From contig NZ_AUAR01000007.1 in the NCBI RefSeq assembly GCF_000428825.1, positions 124,001-188,000 on the forward strand: 64,000 nt of DNA, given 5' to 3'. This DNA is from Desulfomicrobium escambiense DSM 10707. Lineage in GTDB: Bacteria > Desulfobacterota > Desulfovibrionia > Desulfovibrionales > Desulfomicrobiaceae. Both the position numbers and the translations under genes were made by a program. Below the pieces are notes generated by a model. It had not been told where the DNA came from. It saw nothing but the letters and a program-made list of their open reading frames with translations, and did not search any database. Below are positions 1,684 to 7,183 of the stretch, one piece after another (position 1 is the stretch's first letter; each line of letters opens with the position of its first letter).

Positions 1684-2580
1684 ATGCCGTGTCATGGAGC
1701 TCCGGCATTGCATTCCGTTATCCAGCGCGTAGCAGCCATCCACGATCTCTCCGGATTCGGCGGGGGGTCACTCTCAGCAGTGATCCCCATTCTTTCGGCC
1801 ATGGGCATACAGGTCTGCAGCCTGCCCACGGCCATCCTCTCTACCCACACTGGCGGCTTCACGGACTTCCATTTCCGCGACCTGTCCGACGACATGCGCC
1901 TCATCATCACGCACTGGCGCAGGCTGTCCCTGTCCTTTGCCGCCATCTACTCCGGGTTCCTGGGCTCCGTCGAACAGATCGACATCGTTCGCGACTTCAT
2001 CCGCGACTTCCGCAACCCCGACACGCTGGTGGTCGTCGATCCGGTCCTGGGCGATGACGGCAGGCTCTACAACACCATGGGCGAAGGGATGGTGGCCGGC
2101 ATGCGCAGCCTTGTCGCCTCGGCCGACGTCATCACCCCGAACATCACGGAAGCGGCCCTGCTGCTGGGCGAATCGTCCCTTCCGACCCCGTCCGACACGG
2201 CCGAGATCAAAGTCTGGACCGCCGCCCTTTCGGACCTCGGACCCCGCTGCGTCATCATCACCAGCGTGCCCGAAGACTCTGTCCGGGGCACGTCCGTCGT
2301 GGCCTACGACCGCGCGGCCGGCCGCTACTGGAAAGTCGCATGCCCTTACATTCCGGCATGTTACCCTGGGACTGGAGATATCTTCGCCAGCGTGATAAGC
2401 GGATCCCTCCTGCAGGGCGACTCGCTCCCCCTGTCCCTGGACAGGGCCGTGCAGTTCGTGTCCATGGCCATCAGGACGACATTCGGCCACAATTTTCCGG
2501 AGCGCGAAGGCGTTTTCCTGGAACGGGTGCTGCCAAGCCTGAACGCACCCGTGTCCATGAGCAGCTTCGAACTGATATGA
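1684..2580 (+). CDS. pdxY: Pyridoxal/pyridoxamine kinase
   Basis: 298-residue ribokinase-superfamily kinase that phosphorylates B6 vitamers in the salvage of pyridoxal 5'-phosphate. Diagnostic segments are the N-terminal IHDLSGFGGGSLSAVIPIL, the VDPVLGDDGRLY strand, the ITPNITEAALLLG segment and the anion-hole motif YPGTGDIFAS, with GTGD at residues 229-232 and D232 as expected catalytic base. The start at 1684 is supported by AGGAAGG just upstream. The stop overlaps the ATG of the following HAD gene (ATGA), opening a translationally coupled chain that runs into mla. The specific vitamer preference (PdxK versus PdxY) cannot be decided. Confidence 0.85.
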   Translation: MPCHGAPALHSVIQRVAAIHDLSGFGGGSLSAVIPILSAMGIQVCSLPTAILSTHTGGFTDFHFRDLSDDMRLIITHWRRLSLSFAAIYSGFLGSVEQIDIVRDFIRDFRNPDTLVVVDPVLGDDGRLYNTMGEGMVAGMRSLVASADVITPNITEAALLLGESSLPTPSDTAEIKVWTAALSDLGPRCVIITSVPEDSVRGTSVVAYDRAAGRYWKVACPYIPACYPGTGDIFASVISGSLLQGDSLPLSLDRAVQFVSMAIRTTFGHNFPEREGVFLERVLPSLNAPVSMSSFELI

Positions 2581-3419
2581 CTCCGTACCGCGGCATCTTC
2601 GTCAGCGACCTGGACGGCACCCTGCTGCGCGACGGACGCATCTCCCCCGAGGATCTCGACGCCTTCGCGACCCTCGGCAATCACGGCATCCTGCGGGTCG
2701 TCGCCACGGGACGCGCCCTGCACTCGGCCGAAGCCTGCCTGCCGGACGGCTTTCCGGCGGACTATCTCGTTCTTTCCACGGGAAATCAGGTCGTGCACTG
2801 GGGAACCCGAGAGGTACTGCGTTCTTCCCGCTTGTTGGCGGACGAAATTCAGGCTATCTGTTTAGCTTTGCGCGGGCTCGACCTGAGCTTCATGGTCCAT
2901 GACGATTTCCCGGGGAACCGGGGCTTCGCCTTCAGCCGAGGCCGGAAGCGGGTCGAGGACTTCGAGCGCAGGCTGACCCTCTATGCGGCGCATGGACGCG
3001 AGATGAGCGGTTGCCCGGGCATGGACGCCGCGTCCCAGGTCCTGGCCATTGTCGACGCCGAGGACGAGGGGATGCATGCACTCCTCGCCCGGGAGTTCGC
3101 GGGCCTGAGCGTCATCCGGGCCACCTCGCCCCTGGACGACCGCTCCGTATGGATTGAGATTTTCGCGGCGGGCGTCTCCAAGGCCAAAGGCGTGCGGGAC
3201 ATCGTCGACCGTCACGGACTGCAGGAAACGCTGATCGCCGCCATCGGCAACGACCACAACGACAGGGACATGCTCGACATGGCGCATGTGCCCTTCAAGA
3301 TCGGAAATTCATTTTTGGGCGACGACACCTACATCACCGCCCCGAACACCAGCGATGCTGTGGCCAGAGCCATCGCGCACTATATGGAATTGCTGCAGGC
3401 AGACGCAGAGCGTTCATGA
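2577..3419 (+). CDS. Cof-like HAD-superfamily (IIB) phosphatase
   Basis: 280 residues. Motif I is DLDGTLL with D11 as expected nucleophile and D13 as acid/base; motif IV is GNDHNDRDM near the C-terminus, as in Cof-type sugar-phosphate or PLP phosphatases of HAD subfamily IIB, and the middle holds the large C2 cap. Start at 2577 is set by ATGA overlap with the kinase stop; the longer frame upstream overlaps the kinase. Sitting directly after a pyridoxal kinase, a role in pyridoxal phosphate turnover is possible but is inference from context only. Its own stop overlaps the mlaE start. Confidence 0.85.
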   Translation: MTPYRGIFVSDLDGTLLRDGRISPEDLDAFATLGNHGILRVVATGRALHSAEACLPDGFPADYLVLSTGNQVVHWGTREVLRSSRLLADEIQAICLALRGLDLSFMVHDDFPGNRGFAFSRGRKRVEDFERRLTLYAAHGREMSGCPGMDAASQVLAIVDAEDEGMHALLAREFAGLSVIRATSPLDDRSVWIEIFAAGVSKAKGVRDIVDRHGLQETLIAAIGNDHNDRDMLDMAHVPFKIGNSFLGDDTYITAPNTSDAVARAIAHYMELLQADAERS

Positions 3420-4207
3420 AAAGCATATTCGCCTTCCCCGCGCTGATCGGGGCAACTTCGCTGTCCATCGTGCGCAACGTGGGACAGTGGGGAGTCTTCT
3501 CCCTGATGTCGCTCCTGGGCATGATCCACGTGCGCAAGCTTTTCCCCAAGGTGCTCTACAACATCCACTTCATCGGCTTCAAATCCCTGAACATCATCAT
3601 TCTCGTGGCCTTCTTCACGGGCATGGTCCTGGGACTGCAGGGCTACTACACCCTCATCAAGTTCAGCGCCGAAGGCATGCTCGGCGTGGCCGTGGCCCTC
3701 TCCTTGGTGCGCGAACTGGGGCCGGTGCTGACGGCCATCATGCTGATCGGCCGGGCAGGGTCGAGCATCAGCGCCGAGATCGGCATCATGCGCATCTCCG
3801 AGCAGATCGACGCCCTGTCCACCATGGACGTGGACCCCGTGCGCTACCTCGTCACGCCCAAGGTCATCGCTTCCCTGATCTGCTTCCCGCTGCTGACGGC
3901 GATCTTCGACTGCGTGGGCATCATGGGCGGCTACTTCTCGTCCCTGCTCCTGAGTACCCGCTCGGGCATCTACTTCAGCAAGATCCAGTCGAGCCTGCTC
4001 CTGGAGGACGTCACCGGGGGCTTCATCAAATCCTTCGTCTTCGCCTTCATCGTCATCACCATCTGCTGCTACTGCGGCTACTACACCCACCAGAACCAGT
4101 CGAGCGCCGGCGCCGAAGGCGTCAGCAACTCAACGACATCGGCCGTGGTCCAATCCTGCGTGTACGTCCTCATCGCCGACTACGTCATAACCTCCTTCCT
4201 GATGTGA
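3416..4207 (+). CDS. mlaE: MlaE-type ABC transporter permease
   Basis: 263 residues, usual MlaE length, with five or six hydrophobic segments. The conserved ELGPVLTAIMLIGRAGSSISAEIG stretch (about residues 100-123) and the following MRISEQIDAL are MlaE hallmarks. MlaE is the inner-membrane permease of the Mla system, moving phospholipids between the inner and outer membranes. The start codon overlaps the HAD stop (ATGA) and mlaF begins four bases after its stop, so the operon order is mlaE-F-D-C-A, a common order in deltaproteobacteria. Confidence 0.93.
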   Translation: MKSIFAFPALIGATSLSIVRNVGQWGVFSLMSLLGMIHVRKLFPKVLYNIHFIGFKSLNIIILVAFFTGMVLGLQGYYTLIKFSAEGMLGVAVALSLVRELGPVLTAIMLIGRAGSSISAEIGIMRISEQIDALSTMDVDPVRYLVTPKVIASLICFPLLTAIFDCVGIMGGYFSSLLLSTRSGIYFSKIQSSLLLEDVTGGFIKSFVFAFIVITICCYCGYYTHQNQSSAGAEGVSNSTTSAVVQSCVYVLIADYVITSFLM

Positions 4208-4211
4208 GCCC

Positions 4212-5402
4212 ATGAGCGAGACACCCCTCATCCAACTGCGCAACATCACGAAGGCCTTCAGCGGCAGGACCATTCTGAAGAACGCCTCCCTGGACATCCG
4301 GCGCAACGAGATCACGGCCATCATCGGCAAGAGCGGCGGGGGCAAGAGCGTCTTGGTCAAGCACATCATCGGACTCATCGAGCCCGACAGCGGCGACATC
4401 GTCTTCGACGGACAGGCCTACTCGACCATGAACCGCCGCCAGTTCTCGGCCGTGAAGAAGCGCTGCAGCTACATGTTCCAGAACAACGCCCTCTTCGACT
4501 CCATGACGGTCTTCGAGAACATCGCTCTGCCCCTGCGGGAGAAGTTCGTCTTCAAGCGCCGTCAGATCGAGGACAAGGTCAGGGCGCGCATCGAGCAGCT
4601 CGAACTGCAGGAAGTGGCCCAGATGTACCCCAAGCAGATCTCGGGGGGCATGCAGAAGCGCGTGGCCCTGGCGCGAGCCCTGGTCACGGAGCCGGAGATC
4701 ATCTTCTTTGACGAGCCCACCACGGGCCTGGACCCCATCCGCAAGAAGACCGTCTTCTCCATGATCCACCATTATTACGAGAAGCTGAACTTCACCGCGG
4801 TCATCATCACCCACGACATCCCGGACATCTTCTACATCGCCCAGACCGTAAACATCCTGGACGAGGGACACATCGTCTTTTCGGGCTCCCCCATCGCCCT
4901 GGAACAGTCGGCCGACCCGGAGCTCTACCCTTACACCCACGGCCACGAACTGCTCATCGACGAGCTGACGGGACTGCACAACAGGCTGGCCCTGACCCGC
5001 AAGATCGACGACTTCAGCGCGGAATCGGGCCGGGACGAGCACGTGGTCGTGGCCACCATCCGACTGGTCGGCATGCGGACCATCATGGACTACAAGGGGA
5101 ACCTCCTGGCCCACGCCATCATCAAGCAGCTGGCCAGATACGTGCAGGGCTTCCTGCCCGCGGGCGCCTGCGCCGGAATGTTCTCCAAGGAAATCCTCGT
5201 CCTGGCTGCCAAGACCAGGGACGCATCCCTTCTCGAAACCTTCCTGAAGCGTCTCGCGGACTATTTCGGGGCCCTGAGCGTCGAAACCTTCTGCCATCGG
5301 CACAGACTGCAGGTCGAAATCGGCGGGACCTTGGCCACCAAGGGCGTCAACGCCTGCACGGCTGTTCAGGAAGCACTTGCAACCTCCAAGAAGTACGTAT
5401 GA
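4212..5402 (+). CDS. mlaF: MlaF-type ABC ATPase with C-terminal degenerate GGDEF-like domain
   Basis: Residues 1-245 are a complete MlaF ATPase: Walker A GKSGGGKS (39-46), signature SGGMQ (144-148), Walker B IIFFDEPT with D167/E168, H-loop H201. MlaF powers phospholipid transport with MlaE. The protein is 396 residues against about 260-270 for ordinary MlaF. The extra part (about 246-396) begins with DELTGLHNR (250-258), the hallmark opening of GGDEF diguanylate cyclase domains, and continues with IMDYKGNLLAHAIIKQLAR where GGDEF proteins have the IND-YGH-GD helix. The catalytic GGDEF loop is replaced by AGMFSKEILVL (321-331), so cyclase activity is not expected. It could sense a nucleotide or act as a protein-interaction module; this is inference. 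Confidence 0.88.
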   Translation: MSETPLIQLRNITKAFSGRTILKNASLDIRRNEITAIIGKSGGGKSVLVKHIIGLIEPDSGDIVFDGQAYSTMNRRQFSAVKKRCSYMFQNNALFDSMTVFENIALPLREKFVFKRRQIEDKVRARIEQLELQEVAQMYPKQISGGMQKRVALARALVTEPEIIFFDEPTTGLDPIRKKTVFSMIHHYYEKLNFTAVIITHDIPDIFYIAQTVNILDEGHIVFSGSPIALEQSADPELYPYTHGHELLIDELTGLHNRLALTRKIDDFSAESGRDEHVVVATIRLVGMRTIMDYKGNLLAHAIIKQLARYVQGFLPAGACAGMFSKEILVLAAKTRDASLLETFLKRLADYFGALSVETFCHRHRLQVEIGGTLATKGVNACTAVQEALATSKKYV

Positions 5403-5857
5403 AAATCTCAAGCTCATCCATGCACATCTCCATCGGCCTGTTCATCCTGATCGGGCTCGGCTGTACGGCGTATCTGGCCATGACCCTGGCCAACACGACA
5501 TTCTTTTCCGGCGACTCGTACATGATCTCGGCCAAATTCACGGCCGTGAACGGCTTGCGCCCTGGAAGCAACGTCGAAATATCCGGCGTGGCCGTGGGCA
5601 AGGTCGCCGACATCACCCTGGATCAGACCCTGTACCAGGCCGTGGTGACCATGCAGGTCCAAAACGCCGTTGGCATCCCCGTGGACTCCGTGGCGGCCAT
5701 CAAGACCAGCGGCCTCATCGGCGACAAGTACGTCAGCATCACGCCCGGCGCCGATGACGCCATGCTCGAGACCGGAGGCGTGATCCAGGACACCCAGGCT
5801 GCCCTCGACATCGAGGAAATGATCTCCAAATACGTATTCGGAAGCGTCGAAAAATGA
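5399..5857 (+). CDS. mlaD: MlaD-type MCE-domain protein
   Basis: 152 residues: an N-terminal membrane anchor (about residues 8-30) followed by one MCE domain (about 38-117) with the typical GLRPGSNVEISGVAVGKV segment and the IKTSGLIGDKYVSITPG motif. MlaD forms a hexameric ring on the periplasmic face of MlaE and passes lipids to MlaC. The ATG at 5399 overlaps the mlaF stop (ATGA), and the stop overlaps the mlaC ATG. The start is also supported by the short basic N-terminus before the anchor. Confidence 0.93.
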   Translation: MKISSSSMHISIGLFILIGLGCTAYLAMTLANTTFFSGDSYMISAKFTAVNGLRPGSNVEISGVAVGKVADITLDQTLYQAVVTMQVQNAVGIPVDSVAAIKTSGLIGDKYVSITPGADDAMLETGGVIQDTQAALDIEEMISKYVFGSVEK

Positions 5858-6432
5858 AAAAACTGTTTCTTCTCCTGCTCCTGCTGCCCTCCGCGGCCCT
5901 GGCCCTGGACACGCCGACAAGCTACATCCGCTCCAATGTCGACGCCGTGGTCGCCATCCTGGCCTCGCCGGAATACAAGGACGAGGCGACCCGTGAGGCG
6001 CAGATGCAGAAAATCGAAGGCATCGTCGACGGGTTCTTCGACTCCGAGGAACTGTCCAAGCGCTCCCTCGGACAATACTGGCGGACCTTCACTCCACAGC
6101 AGCGCGACGAGTTCCAGGTTCTGTTCCTGGAACTCATCAAGAGCGTCTACCTGAAGAAATCCGTGGCCTACAACGGTGAGGTGGTCGCCTTCAACCAGGA
6201 GATCGTCAAATCAGACACTCAGGCCGAGGTGCATACGACCATCACCTCGCCGCAGCTGAATATCCCCGTCATCTACTACATGCTGCGCAAGGACGCCTCC
6301 TGGAAGGTCTACGACGTGTCCGTGGAGAACGTCAGCCTGGTCAAGAACTACCGGTCGCAGTTCCAGAGCATTTTGCAGAAGAATTCGCCCGATCAACTCA
6401 TCGCCATCCTGAAGGAAAAAACCAATGAGTAA
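5854..6432 (+). CDS. mlaC: MlaC-type periplasmic phospholipid-binding protein
   Basis: 192 residues with a cleavable signal peptide (MKKLFLLLLLLPSAALA, likely cut near residue 17). The rest matches the Tol-Toluene/Ttg2D family: FFDSEELSKRSLGQYW, FQVLFLELIKSVYLKK and YRSQFQSIL near the C-terminus. MlaC ferries phospholipids through the periplasm between the MlaD ring and the outer-membrane MlaA complex. It overlaps mlaD by four bases at its start and mlaA by eight bases at its end, consistent with translational coupling. Confidence 0.92.
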   Translation: MKKLFLLLLLLPSAALALDTPTSYIRSNVDAVVAILASPEYKDEATREAQMQKIEGIVDGFFDSEELSKRSLGQYWRTFTPQQRDEFQVLFLELIKSVYLKKSVAYNGEVVAFNQEIVKSDTQAEVHTTITSPQLNIPVIYYMLRKDASWKVYDVSVENVSLVKNYRSQFQSILQKNSPDQLIAILKEKTNE

Positions 6433-7183
6433 GCGCATCCTCATCCTCGTGTGCGTCGCCCTGGCCGTGTTCATGCTTCAGGGCTGCGCAGGAAAGAAAA
6501 CCGGCCCCTCCATGGCTGCGGACGCCTCGGCGCAGGCCGTTCAAAACGGAGACGAATACGAGGACAACGGGAACGGCGAGCCCTACCCCGACTCCATCGA
6601 GGGCTTCAACCGAGGCGTGTTCTCCTTCAACGACGGGTTCATCACCTACGTCTTCTCGCCCTTCGATACGTTCTACACCGGCTTCTTCCCCCAGGACATC
6701 CGCAACGGCTTCGGCAACTTCTACCGCAACCTGGCCTACCCCGTCAGGCTTGTGAACGCCCTGCTGCAGTTCAAGTTCGACAAGATGGCCAAGGAGACGG
6801 CCTCCTTCGCCCTGAACACGGTCTTTGGCGTGGGCGGCCTGTTCAACGTGACCCGCAACATGCCGGCCCTGCAGGCCTCCCCTGAGGACTTCTCCCAGAC
6901 CATGGCTTTCTACGGACTCGGTGAAGGCACGTACGTCGTACTCCCCATCATGGGCCCGTCCTCGGTGCGCGACATCTTCGGCACAGTGGCGGACTCCTTC
7001 CTGAACCCCCTGTCCCTGGTCACGCCCGACAGCGCCAAGTACGCCCTCGTCGGACATGACAAGACGAACGCGGCGTCGGCGGCCTTGCCTGCCTACAAGG
7101 AGATCAAGAAGGAATCCTTCGATCACTACACGAGCATGAAGGACGTCTTCTTCCAGTATAGACGGGGCCTCGAAAAGGAATAG
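6425..7183 (+). CDS. mlaA: MlaA (VacJ) outer-membrane lipoprotein
   Basis: 252 residues. A lipoprotein signal peptide ends in LQGC (lipobox, Cys about residue 21), followed by an acidic linker and the MlaA domain: DSIEGFNRGVFSFND, FYRNLAYPVRLVNALLQ, SFALNTVFGVGGLF and a conserved GEGTYVVLPIMGPSSVRD. MlaA removes phospholipids from the outer leaflet of the outer membrane. It closes the mlaEFDCA set, with no gene missing, although the MlaB STAS subunit is not present in the window. An mlaA at the end of the operon is common outside the enterobacteria. Confidence 0.92.
   Translation: MSKRILILVCVALAVFMLQGCAGKKTGPSMAADASAQAVQNGDEYEDNGNGEPYPDSIEGFNRGVFSFNDGFITYVFSPFDTFYTGFFPQDIRNGFGNFYRNLAYPVRLVNALLQFKFDKMAKETASFALNTVFGVGGLFNVTRNMPALQASPEDFSQTMAFYGLGEGTYVVLPIMGPSSVRDIFGTVADSFLNPLSLVTPDSAKYALVGHDKTNAASAALPAYKEIKKESFDHYTSMKDVFFQYRRGLEKE

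Follow-up and report, generated by a model that had tools for sequence, protein, structure and literature searches.

The closest described counterpart of the ATPase analysed here is MlaF of E. coli (MlaFEDB structures 6xbd and 6xgy), which has the same ATPase fold and has MlaE, MlaD and MlaC as partners. In E. coli MlaF, the last 25 or so residues, from around residue 245 onwards, form a tail that wraps around the neighbouring subunit and contacts MlaB, and is required together with MlaB for assembly of the MlaFEDB complex (PMC7367683). A signature motif with Met, SGGM, is well conserved in Mla-like ATPases (PMC7367683). MlaB is the sole known partner proposed to regulate the Mla system, and is sparsely distributed among diderms (PMC10665443).

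The GGDEF domains of SadC (4wxw, 4wxo), PleD and WspR are partnered with sensors. Among ABC ATPases, MetN (3tui, 3dhw) also carries a folded domain after the ATPase part, which is a methionine-binding ferredoxin-like domain and not a GGDEF domain; up to 323 residues of the modelled full-length protein described below can be aligned with MetN, at an rmsd of 7.6. An ammonium transporter chain (8qj3, 8qpf) likewise combines a transporter with a C-terminal GGDEF-family domain, but it is not an ABC protein and is related to the present MlaF via the GGDEF domain alone.

The DNA analysed here, termed the window, is a 64,000-nucleotide stretch of the Desulfomicrobium escambiense DSM 10707 genome. As proposed by an earlier sequence-only reading, Pfam, motif and fold analyses identify a gene of this window (4212-5402, forward strand) as an mlaF, located in an mla operon, whose product carries a degenerate GGDEF domain. 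ORF analysis of the window indicates a genuine ORF of 396 residues, as compared with 269 residues in E. coli, in agreement with the proposed excess of about 130 residues. Three other genomes of the genus encode this protein at 90-97% identity, and the nearest named relatives of the locus are Desulfomicrobium assemblies (97% and 96% identity). The antisense frame of mlaF is also open, with no support for an antisense gene. The operon is compact in the order mlaE-F-D-C-A and each gene is confirmed by Pfam (Table 1); the mlaF stop and the mlaD start overlap by 4 bases. Unlike E. coli MlaF with its short tail, the window MlaF continues into about 150 residues that form a GGDEF-like domain; mlaA is present in addition to the E. 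coli-type partners, and no mlaB is found near mlaF in this operon.

Table 1. Features of the mla operon and of the fused mlaF in the window
Feature	Position	Strand	Support
mlaE, permease of the Mla ABC transporter	3416..4207	+	Pfam MlaE 2.8e-77; TIGR00056 above cut-off
mlaF, ABC ATPase part, residues 1-245	4212..4946	+	ABC_tran 3.5e-34
Linker helix between the ABC and GGDEF-like parts, residues 236-253	4917..4970	+	AlphaFold model
Degenerate GGDEF domain, residues 250-396	4959..5399	+	PF00990, profile against PDB, Foldseek, VIA
MFSKEIL, residues 323-329, aligned with RYGGDEF of active cyclases	5178..5198	+	Alignment
mlaD, MCE-domain protein	5399..5857	+	TIGR04430 160.8 bits (cut-off 135)
mlaC, periplasmic lipid carrier	5854..6432	+	Pfam MlaC 1.1e-45
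mlaA, outer-membrane lipoprotein	6425..7183	+	Pfam MlaA 2.6e-60

Just upstream of mlaE (window 1684-3419) are genes for a pyridoxamine kinase and a Cof-type HAD hydrolase. Because the HAD gene and mlaE share 4 bases at the HAD stop and the mlaE start, these two genes may be on the same transcript as the mla operon. The same genome includes a second MCE-type system (G000:C10:20367-22147, L151), in which MlaE has an N-terminal STAS domain and the ATPase has no GGDEF-like extension.

The closest solved structure to residues 1-245 is E. coli MlaF (6xbd; Z 30.6, 38% identity over 250 residues). The phmmer match to E. coli MlaF (1.4e-51) ends at residue 243, inside the linker helix, and the position of the E. 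coli handshake tail is occupied by the GGDEF-like domain. The ABC ATPase fold contains all five motifs, i.e., Walker A (GKSGGGKS from residue 39), the Q-loop (Q90), the signature (SGGMQ from residue 144, thus including SGGM), Walker B (D167/E168) and the H-loop (H201). As these residues are kept across an alignment of 31 relatives, the ATPase should be active. The gene is encoded alongside mlaE, mlaD and mlaC; the best NCBIfam match, NF008809, reaches 197 bits where its cut-off demands 441, indicating that the protein is an Mla-type ATPase rather than a member of the narrow E. coli-like equivalog.

The extension opens with DELTGLHNR at residue 250 and keeps DYKGN at residue 293, as the sequence-only reading had noticed. 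PF00990 matches residues 249-375 of the full protein with 24.4 bits and the extension alone with 27.3 bits (cut-off 23.8), and singly matches the extensions of 29 of 31 relatives. A profile of 31 extensions compared with solved structures retrieves SadC (E 7.5e-23), WspR (4.9e-15) and PleD (1.1e-12). AlphaFold models the whole protein with a pLDDT of 90.4 and the separately modelled extension with 85.8; the top Foldseek matches of the extension model are all GGDEF entries (SadC 4wxo, E 3.2e-7), and VIA gives Z values of 14-16 to about 50 GGDEF entries. The profile score above the gathering threshold and the fold both place the extension in the GGDEF superfamily. These profile-based and structure-based results settle the genuine GGDEF fold of the extension, with evidence far beyond chance. 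The extension is thus not an unrelated helical domain shared by all MlaF proteins of the order, several of which lack it.

Although the fold and the overall sequence profile are common with SadC, PleD and WspR, the first metal ligand, the guanine-binding residues and most GGDEF-loop residues have been lost. Residues were mapped using a printed alignment with SadC, and 72 distinct extensions were compared. In PleD numbering, we take the GGDEF sites to be D327 for the metal Asp, N335 and D344 for the guanine ligands, H340, and R359 and D362 for the I-site. In the window protein, the metal Asp position is R284, the guanine ligand positions are M292 and H301, the H340 position is N297, and the I-site positions are P316 and A319. 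RYGGEEF corresponds to MFSKEIL, in which Glu is retained at the third GGDEF position. The sequence-only reading had given the catalytic loop as AGMFSKEI; the degeneracy stands whereas the register does not, the GGDEF positions in an alignment with relatives being S-K-E-I-L. Intact GG(D/E)EF is found in none of the 72 extensions, and the D327 position is never Asp (n = 72), being mostly Thr, Arg or Ser. Most relatives have lost the same ligand sites as the window protein.

These replacements bear on the idea that the domain serves as a receptor for c-di-GMP or another nucleotide and so gates phospholipid transport, a role of the kind played by degenerate GGDEF domains whose I-site is intact. 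Degenerate GGDEF domains are discussed as c-di-GMP receptors in the literature, and c-di-GMP signalling is likely in this organism, given 27 other GGDEF matches in the genome. In addition, RxxD at the I-site position is kept in 6 of the 72 extensions (L063, L064, L066, L076, L079 and L083; families f42, f75 and f39), which lie on early-branching lineages; these six MlaF proteins would be the best candidates for c-di-GMP binding. The lineage of the window is without RxxD, however, and the gating by GTP or c-di-GMP envisaged in the sequence-only reading is unsupported in the window protein because its metal, guanine-binding and RxxD residues are all replaced. With the sites also lost in most relatives, a receptor role is unlikely. 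It is quite unlikely that Mla transport in many Desulfobacterota is under c-di-GMP or nucleotide control, which would be exerted directly in the RxxD-bearing early branches and through an altered site elsewhere.

The fusion is old and widespread. The layout first seen in this genome is real but not peculiar to it: in the genus, 16 of 16 genomes have matches reaching well into the extension, and in a draw from the phylum, 49 of 395 genomes, belonging to 19 families, have matches extending almost as far as the fused profile does. Further searches added families f3, f4 and f5, bringing the total for the phylum to at least 22 families. The searches covered this phylum and Pseudomonadota, where 0 of 299 genomes matched at E 1e-98 with a profile that also recovers fused copies in the window's phylum. 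In a phylogeny built on the ATPase part without the extension, the fused forms fall in one clade (SH-aLRT 99) of 78 rows, of which 70 are fused and 8 are not. Among these 8, one is a second copy interrupted by the end of its locus, and a basal one, G147, may predate the fusion; the others are best read from the tree as losses or truncations (G285, G379, G341, whose extension is partly degraded, and an orphan group in f5). Because the fused ATPases form one clade, the simplest reading of the tree would be a single early fusion followed by vertical descent and few losses. Two genomes have two fused mlaF genes each, those of L109 (G192:C15) and L041 (G547); in L109, one is in mlaE-F-D-C-A and the second follows mlaA in the same orientation.

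Fused genes are closely tied to the operon. All 30 fused loci sampled across the phylum are mla loci, and mlaE and mlaD flank the fused mlaF at 29 of them, the remaining locus being cut by a contig end. In f5, three genomes with mlaF in mlaE-F-D-C-A keep the domain (one in full, two in more diverged form); eleven genomes have a lone mlaF elsewhere from which the domain is absent, and their operon is mlaE-D-C-A without mlaF in all seven cases in which the mlaE locus was read. Because the eleven orphans group in a single clade (100/99), loss of the domain with relocation was probably one event. This pattern links the domain to operon-borne mlaF. The f5 operons lacking mlaF, together with lone unextended mlaF genes, span several genera (L131-L133, L181-L188, L192 and L195-L200). 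In one f5 genome (L193, G025:C5), the mla operon includes a distantly related MlaF-like ATPase in a 286-residue frame without the extension, which is perhaps a replacement.

The gene order was also inspected for MlaB. A STAS profile gave no match within about 5 kb of the 30 fused mlaF genes, but this profile, built from 11 seeds, is weak as it missed a Pfam-detected STAS domain in a control locus (G017:C15:644175, inside L153). Among the genome-wide Pfam STAS_2 matches listed, none is beside a fused mlaF. Because unfused mlaE-F-D-C-A operons of the phylum likewise have no nearby STAS/MlaB gene, gene order does not discriminate in favour of the domain being a straight swap for MlaB.

GGDEF domains often act via protein contacts. 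The domain might be a docking adaptor which tethers the Mla pump to, e.g., a diguanylate cyclase or phosphodiesterase and does not itself determine the ATPase rate. A rapidly diverging sequence on a retained fold is consistent with such a role, identity to the window copy being 13-38% outside near relatives; but no partner gene is linked to the operon among the few families looked for, and the adaptor role is unlikely.

Selection on the extension bears on whether it has any function. Within the genus, dN/dS for residues 249-396 is 0.10-0.24 in most pairs, as compared with 0.02-0.14 for residues 1-235; two very close pairs, which differ by few changes, give 0.60 and 0.34 for the extension. All 13 pairs have a ratio below 1 for the extension, mostly near 0.2, which indicates that the extension is under purifying selection, weaker than that on the ATPase part. 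Loss of the active site throughout, repeated loss or truncation and this weaker constraint could suggest a functionless vestige, but this is very improbable in view of the dN/dS values and of an open frame with the same fold retained in at least 22 families. Because dN/dS is about 0.2, the extension would have a job, most likely in assembly or regulation of the MlaFED complex. That the domain is an active diguanylate cyclase is practically out of the question, since, although the fold matches active cyclases and some cyclases with a single altered motif residue are reported to be active (PMC3974145), neither the first metal Asp nor an intact GG(D/E)EF occurs in any of the 72 extensions.

Overall, we lean, with some reserve, to the following explanation. 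A GGDEF domain would have been fused once, early in Desulfobacterota, to the MlaF C-terminus at the site of the E. coli handshake tail, would have lost catalysis, and would have been retained in the MlaFED transporter for structural and regulatory purposes. The analysis establishes the fusion with its fold and junction, the single clade, the replacement of catalytic and ligand residues, purifying selection and the link to the operon; the action of the domain within the transporter is inferred. Because the GGDEF-like domain begins exactly where the E. coli tail begins, the domain may have assumed a clamping or regulatory function in the dimer of MlaF. Within the dimer, the two copies of the domain might touch one another, the adjacent ATPase or a partner, and such contacts might set MlaF dimerisation, MlaE association or the ATPase rate, which in E. 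coli is the job of the tail and MlaB. The window protein would probably work without GTP or c-di-GMP at the usual sites. Against this explanation, at least three mlaF genes that are still in the operon (G285, G379 and G341) have lost the domain or carry it truncated, so the Mla pump can presumably do without it.

The MlaF–GGDEF fusion itself is what is novel here, as regulatory domains at the C-terminus of ABC ATPases and GGDEF domains on transporters are each known already. In keeping with the sequence-only reading, which knew of no MlaF with this layout, no description of the fusion was found in the open-access literature, and no NCBIfam model names the architecture. Regulation of Mla transport is unsettled, and this clade offers a natural comparison of a pump with a tail, one with a GGDEF-like domain and one with neither. 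If the domain binds nucleotide, outer-membrane lipid balance would be tied to second-messenger signalling.
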